Source: a virus
IMG/VR virus record: IMGVR_UViG_3300035180_000402
Coordinates: 1-64,000 of that record
Reading direction: 5' to 3' (one strand)
Length of the DNA: 64,000 nucleotides
Shown: piece after piece, positions 37,116 to 59,826 of the stretch
Layout: every line of letters begins with the position of its first letter
Position numbering within the stretch: the stretch's first letter is position 1
The notes under the pieces: generated by a model
The model's database searches: none
What the model saw: the letters and a program-made list of their open reading frames with translations, nothing else
Told to the model about the DNA's origin: nothing
Translations under genes and position numbers: made by a program

Positions 37116-39284
37116 ATGATTCCGACTAAAGCTAGCAATTGGGAATATATCTATTTAGATACTAATACTAACTTGTATGTTCCACATTACTATAACATAA
37201 CTGATAGAGTAATGTTTGAAGATAATGAGTACATAGCTCAAGTAAGTCATTATGCTACTAGTTCTTTCACGCAAGACTACTTAAATGGATATTGGAAACG
37301 TTGGAATCTTATAAAGACTAGAGAATGGCTTCCAGGAACAATTTATGCATCAGGAGATAAAATTAAGTATGGTCATATAACATATATATGTAAATATGGT
37401 CATTTATCTCAAGACTTATTTAGTAAAGATCTTAGTGTAAATTTAGATAACTTAAACTTCGATTTTTTATATAAGAGAAATGATTATAACAAAGTTTCAA
37501 AATCTTTTCCTTGGGCAGGCATAAAAGTATATACCAAAGATGAATTAGTAATAGATAGAGATATAACATATAAGTGTTTACAAGATCACACAGTCAACAC
37601 TCTTGCTGACATATATTCAACTAGACCTTTATATGGTGTAAATTGGAAAAGCTATTGGACTTTTACTATTGAAGAACCTAAAGATTTAAACACTCGTTGG
37701 GCGCAAGGTCGTATCTTTAATATTAATGATCTGGTAGAAAATAATGGTAAGTTATATCTTTGTAAGAGCGCCTATAATGGATTATCTCCTGAGTATATAG
37801 ATAATAATGAACCTGGAATGGGTTCTACTTGGAAAGATTTTTGGGATGAATTTGTACTATGGGATGTAGAACTAACCAGATGTGATTATGTCAACTGGAT
37901 GAGTGATGTACCATTTCTTCGTGATTATTTAGAAGTTATTGATCTATTGCAAATAACTAATATAGATCATCCAATAGTCAAATTGACAAAATTGAGATCA
38001 TTAGATACAGAAACAGAGCAGGAGATATTAAAACTAACCACTAGCTTTTTAGGTTTTTCTTTCCTAGCCGAGTCTTCTTTAATAGATCCATCCTCATATT
38101 ATCAATACATAAATTATTTGTCTATGTATAAGAGTGAGTCTGGAACTGAATCTTACTTAAAATTTTTAAACTTTATAGTAAGACATGATTTAGATATACC
38201 TTCAAACGATACTCCTCTATCTCAGTATATAGATAAAACTACAAAAGTTCCACTTTGGAAAATTAAAGAACTATATACTCATAATTATAAATCTTTTTGG
38301 ACTAAAGAAGAAGTTATTTGTAAGTTAGGACTGAGCAAAAAATACTTTAAAACTACTTTCTTTAGATCTAATGGACAAACAGTATATAATATGTTTGAAA
38401 CAGTTGAATATATGGGTTGGGTTTGGAGTAGTCTTGTTGATAATAATGAAGACTTACCTACTTTAACTTCTCCTTATTGGACCAGAGTTTCTGCTCTACC
38501 TGAATCTGAATTTGTAGATAGTTCATTACTTTCAAATTTTGATGATAGTGAGGTTTTGTATTTAAATTTTCCTATGACATTTAGAGGAACTTGGTTCAAG
38601 CTAGAGTCTTATTATTTGAATGATACAGTAATATATAATGGTAAAATATGGAACTGTATTAAAGCTGGTGCTAAAGGATATATACCTTATGATGGAAGTT
38701 CTTACTGGAGTAAGGTTTCAGATATAAATCTTTTTGAAGTGTATAATAGTTATAAAACATACTATGTAGATGATAAAGTAATGTACAACAATGAAATTTG
38801 GCAGTGTACTAAAGCCAGAATAAAAGGTCAAGAACCATCTGACTCCAGTAGTTCTTGGAACAAGCTCTCTGACTCCAGTTCTGTAGCTAGTTCTGAATTT
38901 AAGAATTATGGTTATTATAGAACCAATAGAGTATATTTATATAGATCTGATGATATGCGTAAGATGGGTTCTGACTTAGAAAAGTATCCTGAATATGCAG
39001 GTATAACTAAAATATTTTATGAATTATCAATTGCAGCTAAAGTAATTTATATAAAGGAGATTGGATATGATTATGTATTATCTAACTTACCAAGACTTGT
39101 TCAGATAAATCCAGATAATAGTGAATTTGAAGAAGCTCACTATATACCATTTATTTGTAATAAAAAAATTACATATCCTACACCTGTAAGAGTAGGCAAT
39201 TGGGTACCAGATGACCTTAGATCTTGTGTAACTTGTCCACAAAAATTATTTACACCTAATATTACCGAAAGTCAACAACTGTAA
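37116..39284 (+). CDS. Baseplate protein (gpI-like core) with carbohydrate-binding-type repeats
   Basis: 722 residues, TAGGATG site. At least four units have the CBM5/12 chitin-binding pattern (a W/Y-x-Y..GD.V.Y...Y.C form): TIYASGDKIKYGHITYICK, GRIFNINDLVENNGKLYLCK, SYYLNDTVIYNGKIWNCIK and TYYVDDKVMYNNEIWQCTK. Between them, residues 265-350 resemble the helical core of P2 gpI (DYLEVIDLLQ, KLRSLDTETEQEILKLTTS). Position after W- and J-like genes is that of gpI, which connects baseplate and fibres. The repeats may bind cell-surface sugars. Confidence 0.62.
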   Translation: MIPTKASNWEYIYLDTNTNLYVPHYYNITDRVMFEDNEYIAQVSHYATSSFTQDYLNGYWKRWNLIKTREWLPGTIYASGDKIKYGHITYICKYGHLSQDLFSKDLSVNLDNLNFDFLYKRNDYNKVSKSFPWAGIKVYTKDELVIDRDITYKCLQDHTVNTLADIYSTRPLYGVNWKSYWTFTIEEPKDLNTRWAQGRIFNINDLVENNGKLYLCKSAYNGLSPEYIDNNEPGMGSTWKDFWDEFVLWDVELTRCDYVNWMSDVPFLRDYLEVIDLLQITNIDHPIVKLTKLRSLDTETEQEILKLTTSFLGFSFLAESSLIDPSSYYQYINYLSMYKSESGTESYLKFLNFIVRHDLDIPSNDTPLSQYIDKTTKVPLWKIKELYTHNYKSFWTKEEVICKLGLSKKYFKTTFFRSNGQTVYNMFETVEYMGWVWSSLVDNNEDLPTLTSPYWTRVSALPESEFVDSSLLSNFDDSEVLYLNFPMTFRGTWFKLESYYLNDTVIYNGKIWNCIKAGAKGYIPYDGSSYWSKVSDINLFEVYNSYKTYYVDDKVMYNNEIWQCTKARIKGQEPSDSSSSWNKLSDSSSVASSEFKNYGYYRTNRVYLYRSDDMRKMGSDLEKYPEYAGITKIFYELSIAAKVIYIKEIGYDYVLSNLPRLVQINPDNSEFEEAHYIPFICNKKITYPTPVRVGNWVPDDLRSCVTCPQKLFTPNITESQQL

Positions 39285-39314: not shown

Positions 39315-41879
39315 ATGGCTACAATGCAAATAACTAAAGTCGGTTATGAGCAAATAACCGATGCACTACAAAGTGGTTATACTTTAAAGATTACTAAAGT
39401 TAAATTTGGTACTGGATCAGATTATGTTCCAACAGCAGGAGATGTTGAACTTCATGGTCATATTCTATATGAAGGCCCAATTAGTAATGTGGATGTAGTA
39501 AATGATGATATAATTGATTTTCTTTGTATTTGCCCTGAGAACTTAGGTGTAGACACAGTCACTATTGGTGAAGTTGGATTATATATAGAAAATACTGATG
39601 GAACCGATACTCTATTTGCATTAGCTTGTTATCCTTATCCTTTCAGTAAAGCACCAAATATGCGGTATAAAACACACTGCTTAGTTTTGAATCCATATAT
39701 AAGCAATGCAGTAGATTTAACTTTAACTTGGACTATGAGTTTACCACGAGTTAATTATTATGGAGATTTACCTAATCCGGAAAGAACTGGAGATAATGCT
39801 TATATAGTAAACCACGGATTTACAGATAGTGGTGTTTTAAAACCTTCTTTAGTTACACGATACGCAATGTCTGATACAGGCCCACTAGCGTGGGGGCTCT
39901 TAAATGGAGATTTATATTATGATGGCTATGTTACTCCAGTTGAAGGGGATCCAGCCAGTTTTAAATTAGCTGGTTTACCATTGTCTAACTTTCCTGCCAT
40001 AAATATTAAATTTGCTTTTGTTTATGTTTGTGAAGGTACAGGAAGAACTCAGTGTAGAGCATTATCTTATAATGCATCACTAGATTGCTTTACTACTTTG
40101 TATGAAGACTTTTCCTTAACTGTTAAGGGATCTGGAACTCCTTCCTATGAAGGAGCTTGTAATACAGGTAACACTGCAGGTACTGTGTTGCATATAACTA
40201 ATCTAGATTCAAGCTCAAGAGTATTGATTTGGACAGCGGTAAGGATGGAAGCTACTGGTCTTGTTTTTAGAGGTCGTTGGGATGCAGCAGCAGGATATCC
40301 ATCTAGTCCTATTCCAGGATCATACTGGGTAGTATCTGGTAATGGTATTATAAATGGAACCTGTTATCAAGTTGGAGACTGGATGGTATTTTCTGGTGAT
40401 GAACAGTGGGATAAGATTGATAACACTGAACTACCTTACTTACTATATCGTGGTGATTGGGATGCTTCTACCGGTCAAGCTCCACCGCCACAACCAATAC
40501 AATATTATTGGCAGAATATTCGTCAAGGACATTATTGGGTAATAAGTACTGCTGGAGTTATAGCAGGAGTATGGTTTGATGTTGATGATTGGATAGTATG
40601 GAATGGAACAAAGTGGCAAAAAGTAGATAATAAAGGTGGTCTAAAATTTAGAGGGTATCATGCTATAGTATCTGATAATCATGTGCCTACTGTTTTAACT
40701 GATGGTGACTATTGGATTGTGTCCCAAAAAGGAACTATTAATGGTATTCGTTATGATGTTAAAGATATCCTAGTATGGACAGGTTCAACCTTTATGCGGT
40801 TGATAAATCAAGAAGGCTTAGTTTATCAAGGTCTTTATGACCCAAGCATAACTGGTGAATATCCAGTGCCTTTCAAATCTGGTGATCTTTGGATTGTTAA
40901 AAAGAATGGTGAAGTAACTAATCAAGATGATCCTACAGTTAAAGATAACTTATATGTAGATGATTTTTTAGTAGCTATTCCAACTACTAGTACTACTTTT
41001 ACCTGTGATACTAATAGTAATAGTACCATTTTAAATACTACTGGTAATATGCGTTGGAAAGTAATTTCAGCAGGAGGATTAACCTATCGTGGTACTCATG
41101 ATGCATCTACTGGTATTATGCCAATTCCCCTGCATAAAGGAGACTATTGGGTTATTACTAATCCAGGTTATTTAAATGGTGTATATTATGAAACAAATGA
41201 TTGGATTACATTTAATGGATCTTCTTTTAATAAAGTTAGTAATAGAGAAGGTCTTAAATATCAAGGACTGTGGGAAATTGGTACCAACGGATCTGTACCT
41301 CCAACTCATCCAGTAGAAGGTGACTTTTGGATTGTTAGCTCTCCTGGATCTGTACAAGGCACTGGATATAGTATAGGTGATTGGTTAGTTTGGACAAATT
41401 CTGGATGGACTAACGTTGATAATAGACCTGGATTCTATTATAGAGGAGACTGGAATCCAACTTCAGGAACAAATCCAGTTGCATTAAAAGAAGGCGATTT
41501 GTATCGTATTAACGCTGCTGGTACATTCAATGGCGAGCATGTAGCTCCTGGAGACTTCATTGTTTGGACAACAGCAGGATGGCTCCTGATCTTAGGAACT
41601 CTTGACCGTATAGATATTCCTAGATATAACATAACCACTAATGATTACATGCTCCGTGAGTATGAATATGCAGATGCTTCTACTGGTAAAGTATATAACT
41701 CAGCTAAAAACCTTAAGATAGGATTTGCATTAGAGATTTTATTTAAAGATAGAACTAATCCAGTGTATGTACCATATCTTGAACAATTGAACGAATTAGA
41801 GTTTTGTGGTTGTACTTGTACTTGTACTTGCCAATGTACGGCACCTTGTAACTGTTGTAAAGGCGCAGGTCCAGTTTAA
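39315..41879 (+). CDS. Tail fibre with seven beta repeats and Cys-rich C-terminus
   Basis: 854 residues, AGGAGG site. Residues 1-150 are a P2 gpH/collar-type fibre attachment domain (ITKVKFGTGSDYVPTAGDVE, TIGEVGLYIENTDG). Residues about 315-762 contain seven repeats of 55-75 residues with the pattern Y-R/Q-G..D, GDYW-I/V, G-x-I-NG, DW-x-V-W, W-x-K-V-DN. The last 24 residues start at C831 and hold nine Cys in 18 positions (CGCTCTCTCQ, then CTAPCNCC), ending KGAGPV. That tail is unlike ordinary fibre ends. The gene is next but one to the radical-SAM genes, so its tail is a candidate target. The repeat function is probably sugar binding. Confidence 0.75.
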   Translation: MATMQITKVGYEQITDALQSGYTLKITKVKFGTGSDYVPTAGDVELHGHILYEGPISNVDVVNDDIIDFLCICPENLGVDTVTIGEVGLYIENTDGTDTLFALACYPYPFSKAPNMRYKTHCLVLNPYISNAVDLTLTWTMSLPRVNYYGDLPNPERTGDNAYIVNHGFTDSGVLKPSLVTRYAMSDTGPLAWGLLNGDLYYDGYVTPVEGDPASFKLAGLPLSNFPAINIKFAFVYVCEGTGRTQCRALSYNASLDCFTTLYEDFSLTVKGSGTPSYEGACNTGNTAGTVLHITNLDSSSRVLIWTAVRMEATGLVFRGRWDAAAGYPSSPIPGSYWVVSGNGIINGTCYQVGDWMVFSGDEQWDKIDNTELPYLLYRGDWDASTGQAPPPQPIQYYWQNIRQGHYWVISTAGVIAGVWFDVDDWIVWNGTKWQKVDNKGGLKFRGYHAIVSDNHVPTVLTDGDYWIVSQKGTINGIRYDVKDILVWTGSTFMRLINQEGLVYQGLYDPSITGEYPVPFKSGDLWIVKKNGEVTNQDDPTVKDNLYVDDFLVAIPTTSTTFTCDTNSNSTILNTTGNMRWKVISAGGLTYRGTHDASTGIMPIPLHKGDYWVITNPGYLNGVYYETNDWITFNGSSFNKVSNREGLKYQGLWEIGTNGSVPPTHPVEGDFWIVSSPGSVQGTGYSIGDWLVWTNSGWTNVDNRPGFYYRGDWNPTSGTNPVALKEGDLYRINAAGTFNGEHVAPGDFIVWTTAGWLLILGTLDRIDIPRYNITTNDYMLREYEYADASTGKVYNSAKNLKIGFALEILFKDRTNPVYVPYLEQLNELEFCGCTCTCTCQCTAPCNCCKGAGPV
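41805..41858 (+). repeat. Cys-codon repeat encoding CxCxCxCxCxC tail
   Basis: A TGTACT hexanucleotide occurs three times in a row near 41811-41828, and the block encodes alternating Cys. The region reads C831 to C848 of the fibre. Slippage in this repeat could vary the number of Cys residues between related phages. Confidence 0.8.
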
Positions 41880-41896: not shown

Positions 41897-42634
41897 ATGT
41901 CAAGAGTATATTTTTGTGTTAAAAACAGTTATTCTTCTACCACTCCTAAACCTGCGAATATTACGTCTGTAGGAGATGTAACTATAACAGTATCTAATTC
42001 AAACATAATAATAAATCAACCCGATGTTCTTATAGACTCAGATAGAGATATACATTTAATAGTTGCTTCAGATTTTACATTTAATACTCCTGGTCTAGTT
42101 CAGACTTCGCATGTTTTTGGTTCAAAGGATTATTTTGATAAAGTACAGGTTTATTATTATAATAATACCTATTTCTATTATTTTGAAAGTGTAGAACATT
42201 ACTGTGCCGTATATGAGCGTCACTTTTCTACAGTTTATTTTAGACATGATCCTACTAAAATATTCTGTGAAGTAACATCTAATGCGATAGCTATTCAAGG
42301 AGCAGGTAAATTTGTTTTTCTAATCAGAGGTCTTTTTGTTTCAGAAAATGTAGTTACCTTGAAAATGCAAGATGAAGAAAAAACTGAAATACCAATATCT
42401 TTAATATCAGATAGTAATACACAAACTACGTTAAACTCTATAAATACTTCTTTCAATACGTTAGAAAATGGTACTATAGTAGATTCCTTTATTCAAAGTC
42501 GTGGATTCTTTTTAGAGCTAGACCCCGATGTTTTAAAAGGTGAAGGTTATCTAATAATAGAGAATGAATTACCTACAAGTTTTGCAATAACCGGTGTATC
42601 TAAGACTAGAAGTAAAATGATGTTCTTTATTTAA
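41897..42634 (+). CDS. Unknown protein between fibre and radical-SAM genes
   Basis: 245 residues, GTGAGGAT site. Beta-rich with many Tyr, Phe and Asn (e.g. KVQVYYYNNTYFYYFESVEH), no membrane segment, no catalytic motif, only four Cys. It lies 17 bases after the Cys-tailed fibre and 34 bases before the first radical-SAM gene, so it is in the same transcript. It might be a fibre-associated protein, or a substrate or partner of the modification enzymes. No family recognised. Confidence 0.55.
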   Translation: MSRVYFCVKNSYSSTTPKPANITSVGDVTITVSNSNIIINQPDVLIDSDRDIHLIVASDFTFNTPGLVQTSHVFGSKDYFDKVQVYYYNNTYFYYFESVEHYCAVYERHFSTVYFRHDPTKIFCEVTSNAIAIQGAGKFVFLIRGLFVSENVVTLKMQDEEKTEIPISLISDSNTQTTLNSINTSFNTLENGTIVDSFIQSRGFFLELDPDVLKGEGYLIIENELPTSFAITGVSKTRSKMMFFI

Positions 42635-42668: not shown

Positions 42669-44033
42669 ATGATAACTAAACATGATTTAGAAGATGATAT
42701 TTTAACCTTTTCTAAAGATAGGTCTTTTAGGTATTTTAAAACAAAAGGCGGATTATTAGTAAAGAGCTTTCTTAATACAAATAGATACTATATAGAAAGT
42801 GCTGATGATGATTTACCTATTGCCTCTGTTTGTTTTGGAGAAGAAATATTTACTAATGATGAATTAGATCAACTATATGATATTATAAATCAAGATAAAA
42901 AACAGTTACGCCAAGATATATTTAGTTTAGGAATATTCAATTCTACCTGTAATGTTAGTTGTGAATATTGTACTAATGGCGATAGAACTAAAATGCTCCA
43001 GAAGCTACCAAGTATAGAACAACTACAAGAGGTCTTTAATACTTATAACATCAAATATGTAAGTGTAGCTGGAGGAGAACCATTAGTAGAATGGCCCCAA
43101 CTAAAAAATATTCTGACATTTTTAGATGAACAACCTGGTATAAAAACAATGGAAATCTTATCAAATGGAAGATTACTTAAGCCTGAGATACTTGAGTTTA
43201 TATCTAGTTTAACACGAGACGTTAAGTTATTTTTAACTGTTACTACAAAAGAAGACTCAAAAGATCACATGAATATACAAGAGCTTTATGAGTTATATCC
43301 GAAGTTGGTAGGACACCCTGTTGAAATAAATATTGTTATAGACCACTATAAATTTGATGTAGATAGATTTTTATCTTTAATTGTAGAAATGGTTAAAAAA
43401 GGAAATTTTGGAGTAACCTTAAATGCAATACGCAGAGAAGACGCAACAGAAGAAGGACTATTGCAATTAATAAATAATGTAAAAGCAATGATCCGAAGTC
43501 CTCATATTCGTGATTTGTCTTGCCCCGAAGACGATAATCCAACAACACCTTTTTATTATGCAACCGGAAGTTGTAGTAGTGGGATGATTTGTGCTTCATC
43601 TAAAGGTTATTCCTTTTGTTTGGCCTCTATGCCACAATATATAGAACAAACTGTAGAAGGTGTAAAGAATATAAGATATATGCAGTCTAAGCATGGATGT
43701 GAATCTTGTGATGCTTATTTTGATGATGTCTTATGTAAGAATAATATTTTCTCTGGTAGTTGTTATAAACTAGAAAGATTCAACTGTTTAACTTGTCCTA
43801 ATTTATGCCAATGCCAATATCAGAAGTGTTATTATCTTTCAGTGAAAAAAATAACAAATCCAGTTGCAGATTATAATAGAGACTTAAGATGTATAGCTTA
43901 TGTTTTAATTTTCAATCTTATTGACTATATAAAACATCAACATATAGATTATTCTGATAGTAATAGTGTGTATAAAATAGACTCAAATAAAATACCGGAG
44001 AAATTAGTAAATGAATATTTTTCTACTAAATAA
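42669..44033 (+). CDS. Radical SAM enzyme with Cys-rich auxiliary-cluster domain
   Basis: 454 residues. The radical-SAM CxxxCxxC motif is C94, C98, C101 (STCNVSCEYC), followed by a GGEP motif at 135-138 (VSVAGGEPLVEW) that contributes to SAM binding. The C-terminal region has 13 Cys between residues 286 and 388 (including CESCDAYFDDVLC and CLTCPNLCQCQYQKC), enough for two more iron-sulfur clusters as in SPASM/twitch proteins. The N-terminal 85 residues could be a substrate-binding domain. Enzymes of this design usually modify peptides or proteins. The 3' end overlaps the methylthiotransferase-like gene by 23 bases. Confidence 0.82.
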   Translation: MITKHDLEDDILTFSKDRSFRYFKTKGGLLVKSFLNTNRYYIESADDDLPIASVCFGEEIFTNDELDQLYDIINQDKKQLRQDIFSLGIFNSTCNVSCEYCTNGDRTKMLQKLPSIEQLQEVFNTYNIKYVSVAGGEPLVEWPQLKNILTFLDEQPGIKTMEILSNGRLLKPEILEFISSLTRDVKLFLTVTTKEDSKDHMNIQELYELYPKLVGHPVEINIVIDHYKFDVDRFLSLIVEMVKKGNFGVTLNAIRREDATEEGLLQLINNVKAMIRSPHIRDLSCPEDDNPTTPFYYATGSCSSGMICASSKGYSFCLASMPQYIEQTVEGVKNIRYMQSKHGCESCDAYFDDVLCKNNIFSGSCYKLERFNCLTCPNLCQCQYQKCYYLSVKKITNPVADYNRDLRCIAYVLIFNLIDYIKHQHIDYSDSNSVYKIDSNKIPEKLVNEYFSTK

Positions 44034-45129
44034 ACATCACACTTGCTACCTATCAAATTCTGAGTTAAACTTTCTTAGGTTCTGTGCAGAGAAGCTTAAA
44101 GGTCTTGAATATGTAGAACAACCAGAGCTAGCAGATTTAATTGTTTATTCCGGATGTTCTGTTTCTGACGATTATATCATGAGGAATAATAAAGAGCTGG
44201 ATAAACTTATAGCGCTATATCCAGAAAAGAAATTTATGTTATTTGGATGTGCTGCACCTTATGGTGAGCACTCAAATGTAATTAGTATTGTACATCTAGA
44301 ACATTCTAAATTAGATGATCTCTTTAATTTACCTTCTGGTTCAATAAAGCAACTTCACTCTTATTATTTCACCTATGAGAAAATTTTTGAAGATCAGAAA
44401 GCTATTTTTATATCTAGTGGTTGTGCTAGTAATTGTACTTATTGTAATATTAAGTTATCTAGACCTAAATTAAAATCAATGCCTTTAGAAGATATTCTTG
44501 AAAGAGTGAATCAGTTTTATGCAACTAATCATCATTATGTCTTATGCTCAGATGACTGTGGTTCATATGGATTAGATATAGGGACTAATTTTGCAGTTTT
44601 ACTAGAAACTTTAGTTTTAAATTTTCCTGATATACTTATAAATATAAAGTGGGTTAATCCACAATGGTTTATAAAGTATTATGATGTTATAAAGAAATAT
44701 GTGGATACAGGTAATGTTATAGGTATAGAATGTCCTATTCAGTCAGGATCAGATAGAATATTAAAGTTAATGAATCGTCCATATACTGTAGAAGAAGTCA
44801 TTGATAAATGGACCAAGATAAAAGGAAAGTTACTATCTTCTAAAGGTACAGTCATAGTAAACTTTCCTGGAGAAACTTGGGAAGAATTTTTAGCTTCTAT
44901 GTCTTTACGTAAACATTATGAAATTTTTATAGTATATATTTTCAAACTAAACAAAAATACAGCTAGTGCAAATCTTCCAGATAGACGAACAGAGGAGGAT
45001 GCTAAGAGACGACTTGAATATCTAAAAGAACATTATCCAGACATATACTATGGTGGAGATCTTATAGATAATAACTTAGACCGCTGTATAGACAAACCTT
45101 ATATGGTAGATAACTTAGAATATGATTGA
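44011..45129 (+). CDS. Methylthiotransferase-like radical SAM enzyme (MiaB/RimO type, no TRAM)
   Basis: 372 residues. The N-terminal domain has the three cluster Cys of methylthiotransferases: C12, C49 (VYSGCSVSDD) and C80 (FMLFGCAAP). The radical-SAM Cys are C138, C142, C145 (SSGCASNCTYCNIKLSRP). Further conserved parts are ECPIQSGSDRILKLMNRPY and VNFPGETWEEF. Family members add CH3-S groups to tRNA (MiaB, MtaB) or to ribosomal protein S12 (RimO). The usual C-terminal TRAM domain is missing; the protein ends about 70 residues early. The start lies inside the upstream gene behind CCGGAGAA. Its substrate is unknown. Confidence 0.85.
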   Translation: MNIFLLNKHHTCYLSNSELNFLRFCAEKLKGLEYVEQPELADLIVYSGCSVSDDYIMRNNKELDKLIALYPEKKFMLFGCAAPYGEHSNVISIVHLEHSKLDDLFNLPSGSIKQLHSYYFTYEKIFEDQKAIFISSGCASNCTYCNIKLSRPKLKSMPLEDILERVNQFYATNHHYVLCSDDCGSYGLDIGTNFAVLLETLVLNFPDILINIKWVNPQWFIKYYDVIKKYVDTGNVIGIECPIQSGSDRILKLMNRPYTVEEVIDKWTKIKGKLLSSKGTVIVNFPGETWEEFLASMSLRKHYEIFIVYIFKLNKNTASANLPDRRTEEDAKRRLEYLKEHYPDIYYGGDLIDNNLDRCIDKPYMVDNLEYD

Positions 45130-46342
45130 TACTTTATCCATAAAAATGGTAGATATTCCAGGTGTTCTTGAATATCATTCTTCGACGCATTCTTTCAATT
45201 ATTGTCCTGAAGTTATACAGACTGAAAGAATAAAATTTGAAGATAGAAATGAAATACAACAAGACTTCTCGAAAGAATATCTTAATAAACAAAAAGAAGA
45301 ATCAGATAAAGTACCAATTATAGGTACAGTAACCATTACTAATGAATGTAACATGGGATGTTCTTTTTGTTATGCTCATAAAAATGAGCAACTAGGAAAA
45401 ATAAATTTAGACTATCTTATACGATTAAAGGAAAAGCTTCCTAAAGAATGTTTTGATCATCTTATTTTATCTGGTGGTGAACCATTATTATATTTTGATA
45501 CGGTTAAGTCAGTAAGAAAGTTATACTCAAAGGTTGTAATATATACTAATGGTAGTCTTTTAACAGAAGATATTATTAAATGGTGTATAGATACAAAGAC
45601 ATGGTTATACATAACGTTAGATTTTGATATTCCAGATTTTATTGGTCATCACTCTAGTCCTGTAAGAGATTTACTAGAAAAGTACATTTATAAGTATCCT
45701 AAATTGTTAGATATAATATCTTTTGGGACAGTTCTTCCAATAGAAGAACTTATAAATTTGCCTAAGCTTAGGCAACAACAAAAACCTTTTGAGTCAGGTA
45801 TATGGAGACTATACAATTTTTTAGATCCAAAAGATAAAAATTATGTAGTTAGTTCTGAAGGTTTTGATCTTGAAATGAGTAATATAGAAACTGGTTCTAT
45901 TAGTCTTCAAGAATCAATATTTTTTAGATATTTGAACTATGTACAAACAGCTTCTACTAATGAATACAACTATAGTTGTTGTGGAAATTCATTAGCCCTA
46001 ACACCCAGTGGAAACTTAACTATCTGTAATGAGTTATCAAGTTTACCTGAGTCTCGTTTAAAAAATACAAAAGTATGGTCAATAGATTCATTAGATTTAG
46101 AAGAAGTTAAACAAGAACAATTAAGAGTAGGTAAATACGGTATTAAAAGTTTTTGTGGTTCATGTATTATGAAATATTTTTGTTCAGGATTGTGTTGGCA
46201 GAAAAAGGGTAATCTTAAACATCAATGTCAAATGGCACGCTTCGGAATAGCATATAGTATGTATTATAAGTTTAACTATTTGAATACTAATTCAATACTA
46301 AATCCGAATACAAAGTTATCAGAAATCTTAAGAGATAGGTAA
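45122..46342 (+). CDS. SPASM-type radical SAM enzyme, paralog A
   Basis: 406 residues. The core motif is C76, C80, C83 (NECNMGCSFCYAH), with SGGEPLL at 117-123. The C-terminal SPASM-type region has eight Cys at 286, 287, 302, 345, 348, 354, 358 and 369 (CGSCIMKYFCSGLCW), fitting two auxiliary [4Fe-4S] clusters. The first 65 residues precede the barrel and could hold the substrate. SPASM enzymes are mostly peptide or protein modifiers that form thioether or carbon-carbon links, or formylglycine. The gene overlaps the methylthiotransferase by 8 bases and is 7 bases from its paralog. The phage context is unusual. Confidence 0.85.
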   Translation: MIDTLSIKMVDIPGVLEYHSSTHSFNYCPEVIQTERIKFEDRNEIQQDFSKEYLNKQKEESDKVPIIGTVTITNECNMGCSFCYAHKNEQLGKINLDYLIRLKEKLPKECFDHLILSGGEPLLYFDTVKSVRKLYSKVVIYTNGSLLTEDIIKWCIDTKTWLYITLDFDIPDFIGHHSSPVRDLLEKYIYKYPKLLDIISFGTVLPIEELINLPKLRQQQKPFESGIWRLYNFLDPKDKNYVVSSEGFDLEMSNIETGSISLQESIFFRYLNYVQTASTNEYNYSCCGNSLALTPSGNLTICNELSSLPESRLKNTKVWSIDSLDLEEVKQEQLRVGKYGIKSFCGSCIMKYFCSGLCWQKKGNLKHQCQMARFGIAYSMYYKFNYLNTNSILNPNTKLSEILRDR

Positions 46343-46349
46343 TATATTT

Positions 46350-47618
46350 ATGTCTTCATCAAAAATTTTAGTAAATGCTATTGGTATAAAAGATAATTCT
46401 ACGGGATTTGCTATCTTATATGTTCCAGAATTTCATTTATTTTTAAAGTCTGAAATACGTCAAAATAAACCTGTAGAATTTTATACTAATTATTCAATGC
46501 CTGTACTTTGTACTCATCAAAATGAGATATATGAAGAGTACAATAAACTAGAAACTCAGGCAGTAAATAAAATTCCTAACATAGGTTATGTAATAGTTAA
46601 TAATGTCTGTAATATGAATTGTACCTTTTGTTATGCTGCGGCTAATACTAATCATAAAAGAGTAGACATTTCTGATCTAGAGCACCTGTCTAAGATATTG
46701 CCCAAAAATTCGTTTAGAAAAGTAATTATTTCTGGAGGAGAACCTTTATTAGACTTTGATCTTGTAAAACAAATAAGAACATTTTTTGATGAAATGACTA
46801 TAAACTCTAATGGAATGCTTCTTACAGAAGATATAGCTAATTGGTTAGTAGAAACAAAGACAAAAATGTATATCGCCTTAGATTATGAGATTAAAGATTT
46901 TGAAGGACATGACTTTAATGCTAAAGCGCATGTAGAAAGTATAATCGCTAAAGTTCCAGAAGTTCTTCCATTTATAGAAGTCGCTGTAACTTACCCTAGT
47001 GATAAACTAGATGAGTTAAAAGATATTAGAACTCAAAATCTTCCATTTGAAAAAGAACTGACCCACGATTTTAATTACATTAAAGGAAAGGATCCTTTAG
47101 TTTTAACTAAATCTATATTTGAAAAAGAAATAGAAAGAATAGAAAGAGATGAAATTTCATTACAAGAATCTATCTTTCATAAACCTCTTAAATATATACG
47201 AAATACTTATAACTGGAGACTTAATATAGAGTCATGCTCTCCAGCCGTACATTTAAATCATCTTGGAGATTTACATCTATGTCAGGTTAGAGCCTCCAAT
47301 ACAAATAGACCTGAAGAGTATGAGAAAGATGTTATCTGTAAAGCTAAAGATTTTAATTTAGACATATATAGACAAAGATCCAACAAAGATAAAAAGATTG
47401 GAGTTTGCACAATAGATAAAAATTGTAACTGTAGATGGTTTTGTGGAAATATATGTTGGGCTAATATAAAACATAATAAACATAATTGTGAAGTTCTTAA
47501 ATACTCGTTATTCTATTCTATGTATTTAGTTCATAATTATCTTTCTATGGAAGGTTTTAGTTTATTAAATTTAGATAGATTTTTCAATTCAAAACTAAAA
47601 GGATTGAACTATGTCTGA
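46350..47618 (+). CDS. SPASM-type radical SAM enzyme, paralog B
   Basis: 422 residues, clearly related to the upstream gene: same layout, the same ISLQESIF stretch and the same final Cys series. The core Cys are C87, C91, C94 (NVCNMNCTFCYAA), with SGGEPLL at 128-134. Auxiliary Cys lie at 296, 311, 330, 353, 359, 361, 365, 369 and 380. The first 75 residues are different from those of paralog A, which suggests two different substrates or sites. The end overlaps the start of the 1191-residue adhesin by 8 bases, so enzyme and adhesin are made from one message. Confidence 0.85.
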   Translation: MSSSKILVNAIGIKDNSTGFAILYVPEFHLFLKSEIRQNKPVEFYTNYSMPVLCTHQNEIYEEYNKLETQAVNKIPNIGYVIVNNVCNMNCTFCYAAANTNHKRVDISDLEHLSKILPKNSFRKVIISGGEPLLDFDLVKQIRTFFDEMTINSNGMLLTEDIANWLVETKTKMYIALDYEIKDFEGHDFNAKAHVESIIAKVPEVLPFIEVAVTYPSDKLDELKDIRTQNLPFEKELTHDFNYIKGKDPLVLTKSIFEKEIERIERDEISLQESIFHKPLKYIRNTYNWRLNIESCSPAVHLNHLGDLHLCQVRASNTNRPEEYEKDVICKAKDFNLDIYRQRSNKDKKIGVCTIDKNCNCRWFCGNICWANIKHNKHNCEVLKYSLFYSMYLVHNYLSMEGFSLLNLDRFFNSKLKGLNYV

Positions 47619-50600
47619 TATTCGTCCTGTACTAAGTATTTTAGAAAAACCTGAAACCTTAAATAAAAGTAAGCAATGTTCTTTTACCTTTAAGTCATCT
47701 AAACCTTTGAAATATGTCTGGTGTGTTTTGGATAATAATCCAAGTTTTAAACTATATCCATCAAAAGATTATCCAGAAGGTGATATTGCTATTTTATCTT
47801 TAACCTATGATGATTCTGATGATAGAGTTAAACACGAGCTAACAGTTCAAGCAGTAGATACAGATGATAATCTTGAGATATATAAAAATGTAATAGTTTG
47901 GACTAATGTTTTTATACCTATACAGTCTACATTAGTAGAACATCCTTCTGATCCAGATTTAGACTTAGCAAGTTATTTTCTAATTACTACAAATAAAACT
48001 GTATTGGGAGTAAGATATTCCTTAAATAATAATCCTTATGTTTTTGTCAAACCTTCAGATAGAGTTTCTGATAACAAGACAGTAGATATTTCATTATATG
48101 ATCTTTCTGATAGATCATATACGATAAGATATAAAGCTGTAGATGAATTTGGATTCGAAGAATTAACTGAACATGAATTTACTTGGAATAAAGTAGTACG
48201 TCCTATTACTACAATAGTAAATATATCTGAAACAAACGATCCAAAAGTAATAGAGTTATCTGTAAATAAACAAGTTGCATATATTGAAAGTTATCATTAT
48301 TACGGTGAAGATAAAGAATCTTTTAGCGAAATTTGTTCAGAAGTAAACTCCTCTGGACAAGAAAGATTCTACTTTAGAATACCACAACCTTTTGAAGGTA
48401 AAAATGAAGTACAATTTACAGCTGTAGATACTAAAGGTTACAGAGAATTAGAACCCGTTGTTTATACTTGGTATGAAGATAAAACAGTTTTATATTCTAC
48501 CTTTATTGAGACACCAGCAAAAGTATCACAGATTACAGATTCTAAATTTACTATTGTAACTAATAAACCAGTCGATCATATAGAATATACTTTAGACGAT
48601 CAACCGGAGAATAAAATATACCCTTGGCCTGAAGATGTAACTAATAAAACGTTCAAGATAACATTTACATCTATGCAAGAAGGGTTTCATAATCTATCTA
48701 TAAGAGCAGTAGATGGGTCTGGATATTTGGAGGATGAGGCACGTGTTTATTCATGGAAAGTAGAAGATCCACCAGTTTCAAATATAATAAAGTACCCAAT
48801 TAGTCCTAGTACAGAATCAACTGCTACCTTTAAAATTGTTGCTAACAAACCATTGAGTCATGCATTATACTCGTTGAACGGATCGTCTTGGAAAGTATTT
48901 AATATAGATCCTAATGACTCAACTAAGACAAGTGCAAGTATAACAATATCTAATTTAAAAAATGGCGATTATACTATACAGATAAAAGCAGTAGATTTAT
49001 TTGGAGCTGTGGAGAGAGAATCAACTGAAAAATCTTGGAGTGTAGAAGGTATTGAAGTTGTTTATCCAAATGTAGGATATGGTTCATCTAAAACAATCTT
49101 ACCAGATGGAGTTACAGAAGCATTTAGATTTCACCCATCTCCAGGTGTATATTTTCCAGAGAGCTTACTTGAGTTACCATCTGTTAGATCAATAATATAT
49201 CCAGATACATTTATTGTAACATTTCCCGAAAAGTTTTCTAATCAAACTTCAGGAGTATTTACATTTTCATCTACTAGAATTGGAGCAACCTACCAGATTA
49301 GTTTAGATGGTTCTGAGTGGAAAGATGTAGGTAATCTATATAAATTTAATGATCTAGTTTTAGGCTCTCATTTACTTAAAGTTAGATCTATAGATAGAGC
49401 TGGGAATATTGATCCATCACCAGCAGAGTATTCTTGGAGTATAGACACTAAAAAACCAGTTTCTACCTTTGTAGAAACTCCACCTAATATATCTATCTCA
49501 CAGGAAGCATCTATAAGAATAGAGGTAGATAAACCAGTTCAGTACGAGTTGTACTCTTTAGATAATTCTATATGGTTAAAGTCTTATCCTTTAGAGTCAG
49601 ATCCAGATAATAGAACGATATTAGTAGAATTATATAATCTAAATTCTGGACCGCATAATTTTAGAGTAAAGGCTTGTGATATATATGGTAATATAGAAGT
49701 ACCAGAAAAGTATTATAACTGGTTTGTAAATACAGATAGGACTCCACCTGATACTATTATAACTACTATAATTCCTGAATATACTAATAAAGTTAACTGG
49801 GATATAGACTTTATGTCACCTAAACTTGGTTGCACTTTTGAAGTAGCTTTAGACGTAACATTATCTAATACAGATATACGATATGGTGAATGGGTGTCTG
49901 CGAAAAGTCCTTATATTCTTTCTGATTTAGCTGATGGACATTATGTGATAAAGGTTAGAGCGATTGATCTATTTGGAGATATAGATGTTACACCTGCTCA
50001 ATTAGCTTGGAATATAGATACAGTTCCACCAAAATTATTTTTTGTTACAAAGCCGACAGGACCAAATGGAACATTTGAAGTTGTCTCAAATAAAACAAAT
50101 TGCAGCTATCATTTTATTTATAATGATAGTGATACAGAAAACGTAGTATACAGTCCTATCATACCATATAGCAATTTACCTGAAGGAGTTAATATTGTAA
50201 AAATTTATGCTAAAGATATGGCAGGAAATTCTGGAGATGTTATTTCTTATACTTGGACTATTGATTCAGTAACACCTAATACCTTTATTGATACTTATCC
50301 AATAGATAATAGCTCAAGTGGGCAGTTTACTTATCACGCAGATAAACCTAATTGTGTCTTTGAAGTTACTTTGGACTCAGTTACAAGTTTTAAAGAAAGT
50401 CCTTTTACTTTCACTAATTTATCTTCAGGTTTTCATACCTTTTCAGTTAGAGCAAAGGACTTAAATGGAAATTTTGATGTTAATCCCAAAACATATACTT
50501 GGGAAGTAAAGATTTTAAGTACGATAACTGTTACAGTTTTTAATGCAATTAATGCTAAAGCTATCTCAGGTGCACTTGTATCTATAGACACTGGAGAATC

Positions 50601-51186
50601 TAGTAATACAAATACTTCTGGTGAAGCTAAGTTTACTAGTATAAAGGCAGGACTTAGAACAGTCACAATCGCTAAAGATCAATTTGTTACAGAAACCGTA
50701 ACAGTTACTTTAACTGAAGCTGCGATAGCAATAACTGTTTTATTATCGCCCTCTCTATGGGATGGTGCCTATCGTGCTGTATTACGTTGGGGTTACAAAC
50801 CTTCTGACTTAGATATCCATATGTATGTACCATCAGGATCAACTTACATAGACCGTAACTGGGCTAATAAAGGAAGTGAAATTTCCACACCATCTGGATG
50901 GCTAGACATAGATGATACTGATGGTTATGGTCCAGAAACTGTTACTGCTAAAACTCCAAATATAGGTATTTATCAAATATGGGTGTACAATTATTCTCAA
51001 ACACCAGATATAACATCTTCAAATGCTGAAGTTAGTATATACTCAGACCAAGGAAAACAGCGTACTTATAAAGTACCTTTAAACTTAGGTACAGGATATA
51101 AAGCTTGGCATGTATGTGATATCGACTGTGTAAACAAAATTATAACTGATGTAAATTTATTAAGAACAAATCTACCAAATATATAG
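47611..51186 (+). CDS. Giant Ig-repeat adhesin with regulatory-like and YfaP-like C-terminal domains
   Basis: 1191 residues. Residues 1 to about 970 are some ten Ig-like units with a Y.LD...W, L..G.H...VRA.D..GN, Y.W.ID pattern, the same type as in the protein at 16639. Residues about 970-1045 look like a carboxypeptidase-regulatory/CNA-B-like beta domain (ISGALVSIDTGESSNTNTSG). The last about 140 residues match YfaP/DUF2135-type domains (YRAVLRWGYKPSDLDIHMYV, WLDIDDTDGYGPETVT). Such chains are extracellular fibres. The start lies within the end of the upstream SPASM gene, so translation is coupled. It is a possible enzyme target. Confidence 0.7.
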   Translation: MSDIRPVLSILEKPETLNKSKQCSFTFKSSKPLKYVWCVLDNNPSFKLYPSKDYPEGDIAILSLTYDDSDDRVKHELTVQAVDTDDNLEIYKNVIVWTNVFIPIQSTLVEHPSDPDLDLASYFLITTNKTVLGVRYSLNNNPYVFVKPSDRVSDNKTVDISLYDLSDRSYTIRYKAVDEFGFEELTEHEFTWNKVVRPITTIVNISETNDPKVIELSVNKQVAYIESYHYYGEDKESFSEICSEVNSSGQERFYFRIPQPFEGKNEVQFTAVDTKGYRELEPVVYTWYEDKTVLYSTFIETPAKVSQITDSKFTIVTNKPVDHIEYTLDDQPENKIYPWPEDVTNKTFKITFTSMQEGFHNLSIRAVDGSGYLEDEARVYSWKVEDPPVSNIIKYPISPSTESTATFKIVANKPLSHALYSLNGSSWKVFNIDPNDSTKTSASITISNLKNGDYTIQIKAVDLFGAVERESTEKSWSVEGIEVVYPNVGYGSSKTILPDGVTEAFRFHPSPGVYFPESLLELPSVRSIIYPDTFIVTFPEKFSNQTSGVFTFSSTRIGATYQISLDGSEWKDVGNLYKFNDLVLGSHLLKVRSIDRAGNIDPSPAEYSWSIDTKKPVSTFVETPPNISISQEASIRIEVDKPVQYELYSLDNSIWLKSYPLESDPDNRTILVELYNLNSGPHNFRVKACDIYGNIEVPEKYYNWFVNTDRTPPDTIITTIIPEYTNKVNWDIDFMSPKLGCTFEVALDVTLSNTDIRYGEWVSAKSPYILSDLADGHYVIKVRAIDLFGDIDVTPAQLAWNIDTVPPKLFFVTKPTGPNGTFEVVSNKTNCSYHFIYNDSDTENVVYSPIIPYSNLPEGVNIVKIYAKDMAGNSGDVISYTWTIDSVTPNTFIDTYPIDNSSSGQFTYHADKPNCVFEVTLDSVTSFKESPFTFTNLSSGFHTFSVRAKDLNGNFDVNPKTYTWEVKILSTITVTVFNAINAKAISGALVSIDTGESSNTNTSGEAKFTSIKAGLRTVTIAKDQFVTETVTVTLTEAAIAITVLLSPSLWDGAYRAVLRWGYKPSDLDIHMYVPSGSTYIDRNWANKGSEISTPSGWLDIDDTDGYGPETVTAKTPNIGIYQIWVYNYSQTPDITSSNAEVSIYSDQGKQRTYKVPLNLGTGYKAWHVCDIDCVNKIITDVNLLRTNLPNI

Positions 51187-53281: not shown

Positions 53282-55729
53282 ATGATTTTATTAAAAGATA
53301 TGAAGACTAGTCTTTTTAAAAATGCTGATGCCTATTGGAAGAGTAATAGAAAAGATCATATCCAACTTGAAAGTTATGATCTATATATAGGTGCTAGATT
53401 CAGATGTAAAGTACGAACAGGATCAACTTTAAAGTATTTATACTTTACTATAATATCTTTAGATCCTGCAGTTATAGCTTATTGGATTCAGGATGAATTT
53501 GCAATTTATCTAGCACCTGTAGATTTTGAGCAACTATTTATAAGAAGGATACTCAATAGACGTAACCTTATAGAAAAAATGTTACATCCACAAGATATTC
53601 GAATTATACCCGTCAAAGTATTAAACTCCATACAGACTAGAAAAATGCTTTGGATGATACCTAGATTAACACAGAAAGATGTTCAATCAGCGCCTTATAG
53701 CTTGAACATTATTTCTCCTAAACTGATTTACAACTTTAGTACCTACATTAGTGCAGGTAAAGAAGATATCTTCGGGTGGTTACTTAATCTAGTAACACAA
53801 GCCAATTCTGATTATCATACAGGTAAAAAACAATCAAGTCTTACTGATGATCAATATGACGAACTAAAAGAACTGTTGCTATCTATAGATCCTAAAAAAG
53901 CTAAGATTTTAGAATCAGTTGGGGCACCAGTAATAGAAGAAAAAGATGTTAGGAAAAAGGTAGAACTTGAATATAAAATGGGTTCATTACGTAAGATTAA
54001 ACCAGATGGTTCTACTACAAATAAATTTATAAAAGATACAAAAGATGATGAGTATATAGTCTCTGATAAGTTAGATGGATTAAGTCTGAGTTTAACTTAT
54101 AGAAATTCAAATTTAGTAAAAGCTACAACTAGAGGTGATGGTTATATTGGACAAGATGTAACTAGGCATATACTTCAAGTTCCTTCTGTACCTAAGAAAC
54201 TTAATTCTAAATATGCTAAAGAGAATCTAACTATACGAGCTGAAGGAATTTTAGCAAACTCTGATTTTGAGATGTTTAACAAACTCTTGGTTAAAGAAGG
54301 TAACTCGGAATTTGCTAATCCACGCAATATGATAGCTGGTGTATTTAATAGATTATCACCTAATAAAAAAGTTTTAGCTAAGTTAAATGTTGTAACTTAT
54401 GCTATAATGAGTAGAGAAAAAGACTTAGATAAAAAGCAACAACTTAAACAACTTGAAGATATGGGTTTTCATGTAGTTCCTTACAAAGTATTTAAAGCTA
54501 AAGATATTTCAGAAGAGAAGTTAACAAAGTATATTTCTGATAGAAAGCTAATGGGTGACTTTGATTTAGATGGGGCTGTAATAGAAGTAAATAATGCTAA
54601 GATCAGACAATCCCTTGGTAATGAAACTAATTCAATAAATCCTAAATATGCTAAAGCATTTAAGACTGGTGATACTGAAAAAGTTGAAGCTAAAGTACTA
54701 GAAGTTGTATGGGCTGTATCTAAACATGGATATTTAAAACCACGGATTCGTATTTTTCCTGTAAAATTAGGTGGTGTTACTGTATCATATGCTACAGCTT
54801 TTAATGCCTCTTTTGTTTATGAAAATAAATTAGGTCCTGGAGCTAAGGTATTATTAACACGTTCTGGCGATGTAATTCCACATATACTTAAAGTAATAGA
54901 TAAAGCTAAGAAACCTCAAATGCCAGATAAAGATGTAGTAGGTAATTATGAATGGAATGATACAAAAGTTGATTTAGTATTATCTGAACCACATGAGAAT
55001 GATACTGTAAAGATAAAACAAATATCCGGATTCTTTAGTCGGATAGGAGTAGATTATCTTGGACGTGGCTTAATAACACGTTTTTATGAACACGGCTTTG
55101 ACTCTATAGATAAAGTAATTCACATTACTGTAAAAGATTTATTATCTATTGATGGTATTCAAAAGAAAAGTGCAGAAAAATTATATGAAGGTATTACTAA
55201 AGCATTACAGACTGTAGACTTACCTACTCTAGCTTCTGCTACTCCATACTTTGGAGTAAACTTTGGAGAAACAAGACTAGATAAAATATACGAAGTTTAT
55301 AAAGATGAAATGTTTAGTAGATGGAAAGGTTATACAGTAAGAACTGTAGCAGAAGAAATTTCTAAAATACCTGGATTTAGTTCTAACACTGCAATTCAAT
55401 TTGCAAAAGGTATTAAACCTTTTAATTCATTTTTGAAAAGAAATTCTGATGTATTAAAAATAAACAAGAAGAAGGAACAAAAGAAATTAAGTAATGTATT
55501 TTCAAATGTATCTATTTGTTGGACTGGCATTAGACAAAGAGACTTAGAAGAACTACTTATAGCAAATGGCGGTAAAGTAGAATCATCTGTTAAAAATGGA
55601 TTGACCTATCTTGTAGCAAAAGATCCGAATAGTACTAGTGCTAAAATGCAGAAAGCTAGAGATTTGAAGATAAAGATAATATCTCCAGACCAAGCAATAA
55701 AATTGTTTAAAGATAAAGGTGTTTTATAA
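53282..55729 (+). CDS. ligA: NAD+-dependent DNA ligase
   Basis: 815 residues. Order: an added N-terminal domain of about 145 residues not normally found in bacterial LigA; an Ia-type segment (DDQYDELKELL, 189-199); the adenylation domain with Lys263 in the KxDG motif (SDKLDGLSLSL); further nucleotidyltransferase motifs (FDLDGAVIEVNN); OB fold; helix-hairpin-helix region (about 600-700); and a C-terminal BRCT domain (about 738-815). The four-Cys zinc finger between OB and HhH is missing: no Cys pairs occur there. It seals nicks using NAD+. It may serve phage replication or repair with the 3'-phosphoesterase encoded at 60204. Confidence 0.93.
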   Translation: MILLKDMKTSLFKNADAYWKSNRKDHIQLESYDLYIGARFRCKVRTGSTLKYLYFTIISLDPAVIAYWIQDEFAIYLAPVDFEQLFIRRILNRRNLIEKMLHPQDIRIIPVKVLNSIQTRKMLWMIPRLTQKDVQSAPYSLNIISPKLIYNFSTYISAGKEDIFGWLLNLVTQANSDYHTGKKQSSLTDDQYDELKELLLSIDPKKAKILESVGAPVIEEKDVRKKVELEYKMGSLRKIKPDGSTTNKFIKDTKDDEYIVSDKLDGLSLSLTYRNSNLVKATTRGDGYIGQDVTRHILQVPSVPKKLNSKYAKENLTIRAEGILANSDFEMFNKLLVKEGNSEFANPRNMIAGVFNRLSPNKKVLAKLNVVTYAIMSREKDLDKKQQLKQLEDMGFHVVPYKVFKAKDISEEKLTKYISDRKLMGDFDLDGAVIEVNNAKIRQSLGNETNSINPKYAKAFKTGDTEKVEAKVLEVVWAVSKHGYLKPRIRIFPVKLGGVTVSYATAFNASFVYENKLGPGAKVLLTRSGDVIPHILKVIDKAKKPQMPDKDVVGNYEWNDTKVDLVLSEPHENDTVKIKQISGFFSRIGVDYLGRGLITRFYEHGFDSIDKVIHITVKDLLSIDGIQKKSAEKLYEGITKALQTVDLPTLASATPYFGVNFGETRLDKIYEVYKDEMFSRWKGYTVRTVAEEISKIPGFSSNTAIQFAKGIKPFNSFLKRNSDVLKINKKKEQKKLSNVFSNVSICWTGIRQRDLEELLIANGGKVESSVKNGLTYLVAKDPNSTSAKMQKARDLKIKIISPDQAIKLFKDKGVL

Positions 55730-59490: not shown

Positions 59491-59826
59491 TTATTTGTTG
59501 ACAACCGGAACTTTTGATGATGATAGTTTATTTATTTCTAATAATGTATTATAGTTTTTATCTCCCCATAATAGAATCCTATTTAAGTTTTCTTGTAACA
59601 GTTCTAAATCTTTTCTACTTAAACCTCCTATTACTTCAGGATCATCTAAGCGTCTAGCTTTCACTTCTATTAATGAAGGTCTTTCTGAAACTGGCCATAC
59701 TTTATACTGACAATTAATTGGTTCCGGTACTGGTGGGCAAACTATCGGTTTTTGGCACGCCGAAAGGAATAATAACAACAGGCTCAAGAATAGAATTTTT
59801 AGTGACATTACATTTAGTACCTTCAT
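59491..59826 (-). CDS. Outer-membrane lipoprotein, Rz1-like o-spanin
   Basis: 111 residues. Signal peptide with lipobox (SLLLLFLSAC), so the mature N-terminal Cys would be lipid-modified and sent to the outer membrane. The mature part is short with Pro-rich start (PIVCPPVPEP). The start ATG at 59826 has a GGAGG site and lies inside the Rz-like gene in another frame; the overlap is 113 bases. Nested Rz1 in Rz is the standard two-component spanin layout. Spanins fuse inner and outer membranes in the final step of lysis. This implies a Gram-negative host. Confidence 0.78.
   Translation of the reverse strand: MKVLNVMSLKILFLSLLLLFLSACQKPIVCPPVPEPINCQYKVWPVSERPSLIEVKARRLDDPEVIGGLSRKDLELLQENLNRILLWGDKNYNTLLEINKLSSSKVPVVNK

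Follow-up and report, generated by a model that had tools for sequence, protein, structure and literature searches.

The window analysed here, a 64,000-nucleotide stretch of viral DNA (positions 1 to 64,000 of IMG/VR virus record IMGVR_UViG_3300035180_000402), carries a cassette of four consecutive radical S-adenosylmethionine (rSAM) genes and, two genes upstream of it, the gene for a tail fibre of 854 amino acids (aa) whose C-terminal end, rich in cysteine and threonine, is written FCGCTCTCTCQCTAPCNCC or FCGCTCTCTCQCTAPCNCCKGAGPV. We consider it likely that the locus is a virion-protein modification system in which the rSAM enzymes act on this cysteine/threonine tail, perhaps by introducing thioether cross-links. 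The evidence consists of the genes themselves, their order and family, the joint conservation and joint absence of tail and enzymes, and similar pairs in unrelated phages. From these we infer that the fibre tail is the enzyme substrate; which chemistry is performed (thioether formation), what gene 2 contributes, when modification takes place and what the tip is used for are proposed more tentatively. A first-pass annotation of the same DNA had already suggested a virion-protein or peptide modification system; gene neighbourhood and recurrence argue for that suggestion, although the probable target, the cysteine tail of the fibre, had been missed.

The rSAM cassette and the cysteine/threonine tail of the fibre

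The four genes were originally described as consecutive, closely spaced and each bearing a CxxxCxxC motif, and the list of open reading frames (ORFs), Pfam and a motif count bear this out. Genes 1 and 2 overlap by 23 bases and genes 2 and 3 by 8, a gap of 7 separates genes 3 and 4, and gene 4 overlaps the gene for a 1191-aa 'adhesin' by 8 bases (Table 1). Each gene has one CX3CX2C, and the Pfam Radical_SAM scores of genes 1 to 4 (39.8, 69.4, 49.2 and 45.8 bits) all exceed the cut-off of 29.5. Three of the enzymes had been assigned to the SPASM/twitch type. Gene 3 is a clear case, with the complete seven-cysteine pattern (C287X9GX4C302; C345X2CX5CX3C358; then C369), and gene 4, with the first half of the pattern and a variant second half, is a likely one; gene 1 has 14 cysteines within its last 170 residues, but the canonical pattern was not found there and its cysteine arrangement is probably of another form. 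Nor was the pattern found in gene 2. To judge from their alignment (35% identity over 345 columns), genes 3 and 4 are paralogues. The predicted structure of gene 3 is nearest to CteB (5why; E 5.6e-10, TM score about 0.5), followed by other SPASM enzymes, with viperins lower.

Gene 2 had been called a methylthiotransferase, which holds at the level of the superfamily: it matches TIGR00089 (MiaB/RimO) with 149 bits (E 1.5e-43), below the 251-bit cut-off, as it is below all family cut-offs, and the match ends at position 358 of 429. Its N-terminal cysteines at 12, 49 and 80 (three, as for the second cluster) are, by eye, what we take to be the conserved methylthiotransferase positions. TRAM is absent among Pfam matches up to E 1, which makes an RNA substrate less likely for this enzyme.

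The best named PHROG match at the N-terminus of the fibre is phrog_1162 (E 4e-7). Among the 57 ORFs counted in the window, the fibre is the only one with at least seven cysteines in 30 residues, and the CTCTCTC DNA pattern occurs once in the window (mean 0.00 over 100 shuffles). A comparison of the fibre with NCBIfam gave no match, hence none to the CXXX repeats of TIGR04114.

Tail and cassette are jointly present in two lineages and jointly absent in one, which is suggestive. A scan of viral contigs with an alignment of genes 3 and 4 gave eight loci, of which two belong to the window phage, one (L025, an 82-kb contig) is a clear distant relative and five are weak; a scan with both fibres gave five, three of them from the window phage, together with L025 and L037, a 295-kb contig. 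The L025 fibre is 44% identical to that of the window and ends in FCSCTCTCTCTCPCTCQFYSPHSCC; the middles of the two proteins are very different, whereas most C and T positions of the tail and the final CC align. Behind the L025 fibre follow a 250-aa protein, a gene-1 homologue (22% identity, E 2e-11) and a homologue of genes 3 and 4 (36% identity), the record having two rSAM matches in total. Neither a methylthiotransferase nor an adhesin was found behind these enzymes, and the similarity of the 250-aa protein to the 245-aa window protein in the same position is not significant (E 0.029). The L037 fibre is 57% identical over the matched N-terminal part and ends in another domain, without cysteine; no rSAM gene lies downstream of it, and the one rSAM match in the record, which may be a fragment, is a 233-aa frame more than 100 kb away.

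The window phage is a large tailed phage, with 35% tail-sheath identity to phages NCTB and PaBG. The 81.6-kb virus record that contains the window has a fifth rSAM match at 78951-79313, and contigs of 147 and 170 kb, with five or six rSAM matches in all, carry identical copies of genes 1 to 3. Scans of viral contigs with single proteins (genes 1, 2 and 3) found the same phage only, a scan with genes 3, 4 and the L025 homologue found no further new system, and the first scan of the genome-contig collection found no relative. With tblastn against the phage collection, gene 1 and the fibre had no match, gene 3 one weak match and gene 4 four weak matches; gene 2 matched 32 records at less than 60% identity, the 30 listed being at 22-29%.

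Further cysteine-bearing ends were seen. The tail protein encoded before the fibre (window 37116-39284) ends, by eye, in the short motif SCVTCPQKLF, which is TCVTCPQRLF in its L037 counterpart and missing from its L025 counterpart, and therefore does not track the cassette. The 72-aa window protein that ends in SCCGGGASR has, by eye, a 100-aa counterpart ending in SCCGNTKVI in L037, which has no cassette, and was set aside as a substrate. A separate contig has, amid portal and terminase-like genes, one for an rSAM protein of 313 aa (L026:9923-10864); its end, SSSSCGGSSSSRC, looks like a built-in cysteine tail.

Comparable pairs in unrelated and cultured phages

On the viral contig L096, the gene for a 191-aa protein ending in CCECECTCTCTCTCTCTCTCTCTEQCCSECDCGD overlaps a SPASM rSAM gene, which is followed by a second rSAM gene; the contig, tested as L299, also encodes a lambda-J-like protein (phrog_31, E 2e-151). 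The same type of module is found on three contigs of one Omnitrophota metagenome-assembled genome, and on all four contigs the CTCTCT-tailed protein lies directly 5' of the SPASM enzyme. The first L096 enzyme matches the PapB (E 1e-61), CXXX-repeat (9e-41) and SCIFF (3e-37) maturase models, all below their cut-offs, and the second matches B12-type and MiaB-type rSAM families. A profile of the L096-type enzyme matches CteB (5wgg) with E 1.4e-32 over most of its length.

L096 comes from a scan of viral contigs for the tail pattern, which returned at least 120 stretches with their frames listed by script. L096 and L056 were followed; L056 was rejected as another frame of a proline/alanine-rich gene, and the remaining stretches were set aside by the appearance of their frames only, the CTCTCTC DNA pattern being noisy. 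A longer pattern in genome contigs, with the script run over all of the at least 120 stretches and the others that were flagged set aside by look, gave one tail ORF adjoining enzymes (L197), and L208 and L288 match the rSAM regular expression. Neither scan yields an estimate of frequency.

A census by enzyme sequence, made as a viral scan with an alignment of the L096-type SPASM enzyme, comprises 43 loci including the seed contig L299. A cysteine-dense protein (at least seven cysteines in 30 residues, at least 80 aa, same strand) lies near the enzyme at 34 of the 43 loci and in 20 of the 29 enzyme clusters defined at 70% identity. When both strands are counted with overlap resolution the figure is 33 of 43, because an opposite-strand ORF displaces the one at L319. 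None of 14 control slices (13 kb; 222 ORFs in all in their source stretches) holds such a protein, which for 20/29 clusters against 0/14 slices gives a one-sided Fisher p of 1e-5 with a control that is small: 11 slices lie around the tail-sheath gene of four phages whose rSAM content was unchecked, and three are from G005, known beforehand to be without tail and cassette near the fibre. An earlier background had 5 positive slices of 26, three being rSAM loci themselves (the window, the Salmonella phage SPN3US and an Erwinia phage) and two containing CPT_0032 and CPT_0154 of Campylobacter phage CP220; with these two proteins taken as background, 2 of the 23 slices of that earlier control are positive, the slicing having omitted the end of the CP220 stretch that bears CPT_0180. 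Part of the association is expected, because relatives of the census enzymes are already known as cysteine-peptide maturases; what is new to us is its place, in tail and virion modules.

The cysteine designs at these loci are diverse. They comprise CTCTCT tails (L299-L308), CTCNCNY heptads (L310, L338), CICDCNH (L328-L330, L332) and CPCNCNF (L322-L324); L312, L317, L325 and further loci have CXXX repeats, CTGTCSGTC for example, and at L314 a fibre-like protein has a CSGSC end. Pfam gave no match for the fibre-like proteins of L314, so that this label is by eye only. Virion PHROGs (tail, connector or head) match 13 of 17 hand-picked neighbour proteins that are not cysteine-dense (4/7 and 9/10), a set that includes one without match, L354, from outside the 43 loci. 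At both L312 and L317 the cysteine protein and the enzyme come after a baseplate wedge protein and a collar-type fibre, and are themselves followed by an amidase-like gene (by eye). Outside their repeats, the cysteine proteins of L096, L308, L312, L313, L317, L318, L325 and L338 share, by eye, a motif of roughly E/K-L-R...E..RR, possibly a recognition or attachment domain. A second CTCNCNY protein at L338 (L338:5837-6397) ends in SAKSDIRLKYDIEYL, which by eye resembles what we take to be the start of a tail-spike chaperone domain and may hint at a split fibre.

Two cultured systems carry related arrangements. In the jumbo phage SPN3US (NC_027402.1; L352), the rSAM genes gp102 and gp103 come after two small ORFs, which come after gp099, annotated as a virion structural protein. 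These ORFs encode 130 aa with 21 cysteines and then 134 aa with 20 cysteines, arranged in CXXX repeats; both have plausible ribosome-binding sites and are conserved in Erwinia phage pEa_SNUABM_29. The 130-aa ORF is unannotated, and the annotated gp100 is in a different frame from the 134-aa ORF. The N-terminal 57 residues of the first ORF match 69 records; of the 30 listed, 25 lack an annotated feature at that place. SPN3US gp103 is approximately 25% identical to the L312 enzyme. A 68-70-aa relative was also seen before gp102/gp103, within record positions 143191-144220, where the two ORFs themselves occupy 143413-143817 and 143828-144220. In the accessible part of the SPN3US proteome paper the term radical SAM is absent, and the gene numbering differs from that of the record.

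Translation of CPt10 and IBB_35, both Campylobacter phages, gives a protein of 534 aa carrying CTCDCNY heptads; CPT_0180 of CP220, annotated with 21-bp repeats, has the same length and cysteine density, and a CPT_0180 homologue is filed as AEF56812.1. A search with the L338 enzyme found 15 records, all of Campylobacter phages; in CP220 it matches, at 34% identity and over 98% of its length, an rSAM gene 2.2 kb downstream of CPT_0180. The L338 cysteine protein matches PHROG 26958 (534 positions, E 2e-12), which, because of its length and the position matched, is probably the 534-aa heptad protein of these phages. Most of the CP220 rSAM genes lie elsewhere in the genome, away from CPT_0180; a cluster at 70-78 kb is beside sugar-nucleotide genes, with no cysteine-tail protein over the threshold. 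Two short CP220 proteins with CKNCINC-type repeats, CPT_0032 (L348:24206-24577) and CPT_0154 (L347:18107-18532), share the start MKLIDGYY, and CPT_0154 lies about 0.8 kb 5' of the rSAM gene CPT_0157.

The first-pass annotation held that rSAM genes occur singly in phages and that no set of four coupled to tail genes had been described. The former is contradicted by the 11 rSAM genes of CP220 and 12 of CPt10, which are called highly unusual in the accessible part of the publication (PMC2853527); against the latter speak CP220-type phages and the several census loci that hold, by motif, two to four rSAM genes. The CP220/CPt10 authors noted the repeat and proposed a metabolic benefit for the rSAM genes, and the accessible text does not link the two to each other (PMC2853527).

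Proposed mechanism and alternative explanations

C-S bond formation on the cysteine/threonine tail is proposed because the gene 3 model and the L096-type profile both match CteB. We hypothesize that the fibre is synthesized with a short extension at its C-terminus, rich in cysteine and threonine, on which the products of the downstream overlapping rSAM genes would act. Judged by the SPASM enzymes whose chemistry is known, the products of genes 3 and 4, and perhaps 1, would most likely abstract hydrogens and join cysteine sulphurs to neighbouring residues as thioether cross-links, threonine being the obvious candidate acceptor in TCTCTC; the gene 2 product may add a methylthio group or form another C-S bond on the same protein. 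The outcome would be a covalently stapled fibre tip.

A broader proposition, to which we would give an even chance, is that a widespread, so far unrecognised class of virion proteins in phages undergoes maturation like that of ribosomally synthesized and post-translationally modified peptides (RiPPs), with cysteine-repeat modules on fibres or tail-associated proteins stapled by SPASM rSAM enzymes, in some cases together with a second enzyme of B12 or methylthiotransferase type, and that this is the common purpose of the window genes, SPN3US gp102/gp103 and part of the CP220-type rSAM genes. Were this so, such phages would have cross-linked tips or appendages. Small natural products are the main setting in which peptides are known to be cross-linked by radical chemistry; on phage tail proteins such cross-linking would represent a novel type of virion modification. 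It would also give a purpose to rSAM genes that puzzled the sequencers of phages such as CP220, and provide new enzymes and substrates with a possible bearing on tail-tip stability and receptor contact. This is directly testable, since the cultured phages SPN3US and CP220 carry comparable loci.

Several points weigh against modification of the fibre tail. The proposal is supported by gene neighbourhood and recurrence, not by an observed modified product, and the co-occurrence in the window's own lineage involves only two lineages with tail and cassette and one without. The best scores of genes 1, 3 and 4 against NCBIfam maturases are 35-50 bits, where those models have cut-offs of 180-268 bits; their sequence matches to known families cover the radical-SAM core only (as do, almost entirely, those of genes 3 and 4 to solved structures), and viperin-like and MoaA-like models score as high as peptide maturases on the window enzymes. 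The quality of the gene 3 model is moderate (mean predicted local distance difference test score, pLDDT, 58.6) and the gene 1 model is unusable (39.5). The census enzymes are a subfamily other than the window's, with relatives that are known cysteine-peptide maturases, and nine of the 43 census loci (L320, L327, L333-L336 and L339-L341) are without a cysteine-dense protein, the enzyme ORF of L320 being not resolved. CPT_0032 and CPT_0154 of CP220 are cysteine-dense proteins of another kind, which tail modification does not explain.

The principal alternative, which we regard as unlikely, is that the CxCxCxC tail binds metal or an Fe-S cluster at the fibre tip, or locks that tip by disulphides, and that the rSAM genes act elsewhere. 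Cysteines that alternate along the chains of what is presumably a trimer would be well placed to bind metal, rather as the tip of T4 gp37 has histidine-iron sites, and the CKNCINC proteins of CP220 are unlike the tails. Yet tail and rSAM genes come and go together in L025 and L037, and CTCTCT, CTCNCNY and CXXX arrangements all adjoin rSAM genes, a diversity easier to reconcile with a common enzymatic principle than with a single metal site.

It is more improbable still that the cassette modifies another protein of the operon, namely the 1191-aa adhesin, the 245-aa protein or the 72-aa SCCG protein. Gene 4 does overlap the adhesin gene, and the 245-aa gene sits between fibre and enzymes, with a protein of similar size at that place in L025. 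However, the adhesin and the 72-aa protein, which were among the targets suggested in the first-pass annotation, fit less well than the fibre, the L025 enzymes having no adhesin behind them and the cassette-less L037 having a similar SCCG protein, and no significant similarity links the 245-aa protein to the 250-aa one. We think it just as improbable that the cassette serves as auxiliary metabolic genes, or modifies RNA or glycans, and sits in the tail operon by chance: gene 2 belongs to the MiaB/RimO superfamily, rSAM-like clusters without cysteine-tail proteins above the threshold occur in L027 (three genes) and L029 (four on two strands; both by motif only) and beside the sugar-nucleotide genes of CP220, and the metabolic benefit suggested for the CP220 genes (PMC2853527, accessible part) is of this kind, but gene 2 has no TRAM match, the order of fibre, small protein and rSAM genes is kept in L025, and related pairings sit in tail modules.

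Features of the window and comparison with known systems

Table 1. Features of the fibre and rSAM region of the window
Feature	Position	Strand	Basis or remark
Tail fibre, 854 aa, proposed substrate	39315-41879	+	Tail-fibre PHROGs at N-terminus, 44% identity to L025 fibre
Cysteine/threonine tail of fibre, residues C831-C848 (CGCTCTCTCQCTAPCNCC), proposed modification site	41805-41858	+	
245-aa protein without assigned function, between fibre and enzymes	41897-42634	+	ORF list, Pfam
Gene 1, rSAM protein with cysteine-dense C-terminal part, 454 aa	42669-44033	+	ORF list, Pfam
Gene 2, MiaB/RimO-type rSAM protein, 372 aa	44011-45129	+	Pfam, NCBIfam
Gene 3, radical-SAM/SPASM protein, 406 aa	45122-46342	+	Pfam, cysteine pattern, predicted structure
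Gene 4, paralogue of gene 3 by alignment, 422 aa	46350-47618	+	Pfam, alignment to gene 3
1191-aa protein of Ig-like repeats ('adhesin')	47611-51186	+	ORF list, Pfam; possible structural neighbour, not favoured substrate

Elsewhere in the window, a stand-alone protein at 60204-60629 resembles, by eye, the phosphoesterase part of LigD, with a DNA-ligase-like gene nearby at 53282-55729. On the minus strand at 59491-60202, an ORF that looks like a membrane-anchored coiled-coil protein is overlapped at its end by a small lipoprotein-like ORF; by eye, the two may be spanins.

Among known systems, one close in kind is the CXXX-repeat target/maturase system (TIGR04114, TIGR04115, TIGR04117, TIGR04119), in which a SPASM rSAM enzyme likewise lies beside a cysteine-repeat protein. 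Members of this system occur in phage tail modules: the L312 enzyme scores 458 bits against a cut-off of 350, and the L325 cysteine protein exceeds the TIGR04114 repeat cut-off. The window enzymes, in contrast, are not members (TIGR04115 is not among the 21 models listed for gene 1 or the best 25 for genes 3 and 4), their presumed target stretch is short, alternating (CxCxCxC) and fused to the end of a fibre, and the window adds a methylthiotransferase-type gene. The thioether maturases (SCIFF/CteB, PapB for ranthipeptides, SkfB and other sactipeptide enzymes) share the rSAM core, the SPASM domain and a cysteine-rich neighbour protein, but their known substrates are small peptides, and the window genes fall far below the family cut-offs, with matches confined to the core. 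Gene 2 resembles the MiaB/RimO methylthiotransferases in its rSAM core and three N-terminal cysteines, and differs in lacking a TRAM match and in scoring below the family cut-offs.

Among the cultured phages, SPN3US resembles the window in having rSAM genes beside cysteine-rich ORFs and a virion gene; its targets would be stand-alone ORFs, however, and no methylthiotransferase-type gene was seen beside them. In CP220, CPt10 and IBB_35 a heptad cysteine protein lies near an rSAM gene, but the repeats are internal and not at the end of the protein. Among the matches listed from the open-licence literature, to which our search was confined, there was no account of rSAM modification of phage tail proteins, and an earlier description, for instance in subscription papers or preprints, is possible. 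The kind of enzyme and target is already known from the CXXX-repeat maturases of NCBIfam; within the literature searched, it is their placement on phage tails that appears to be new.

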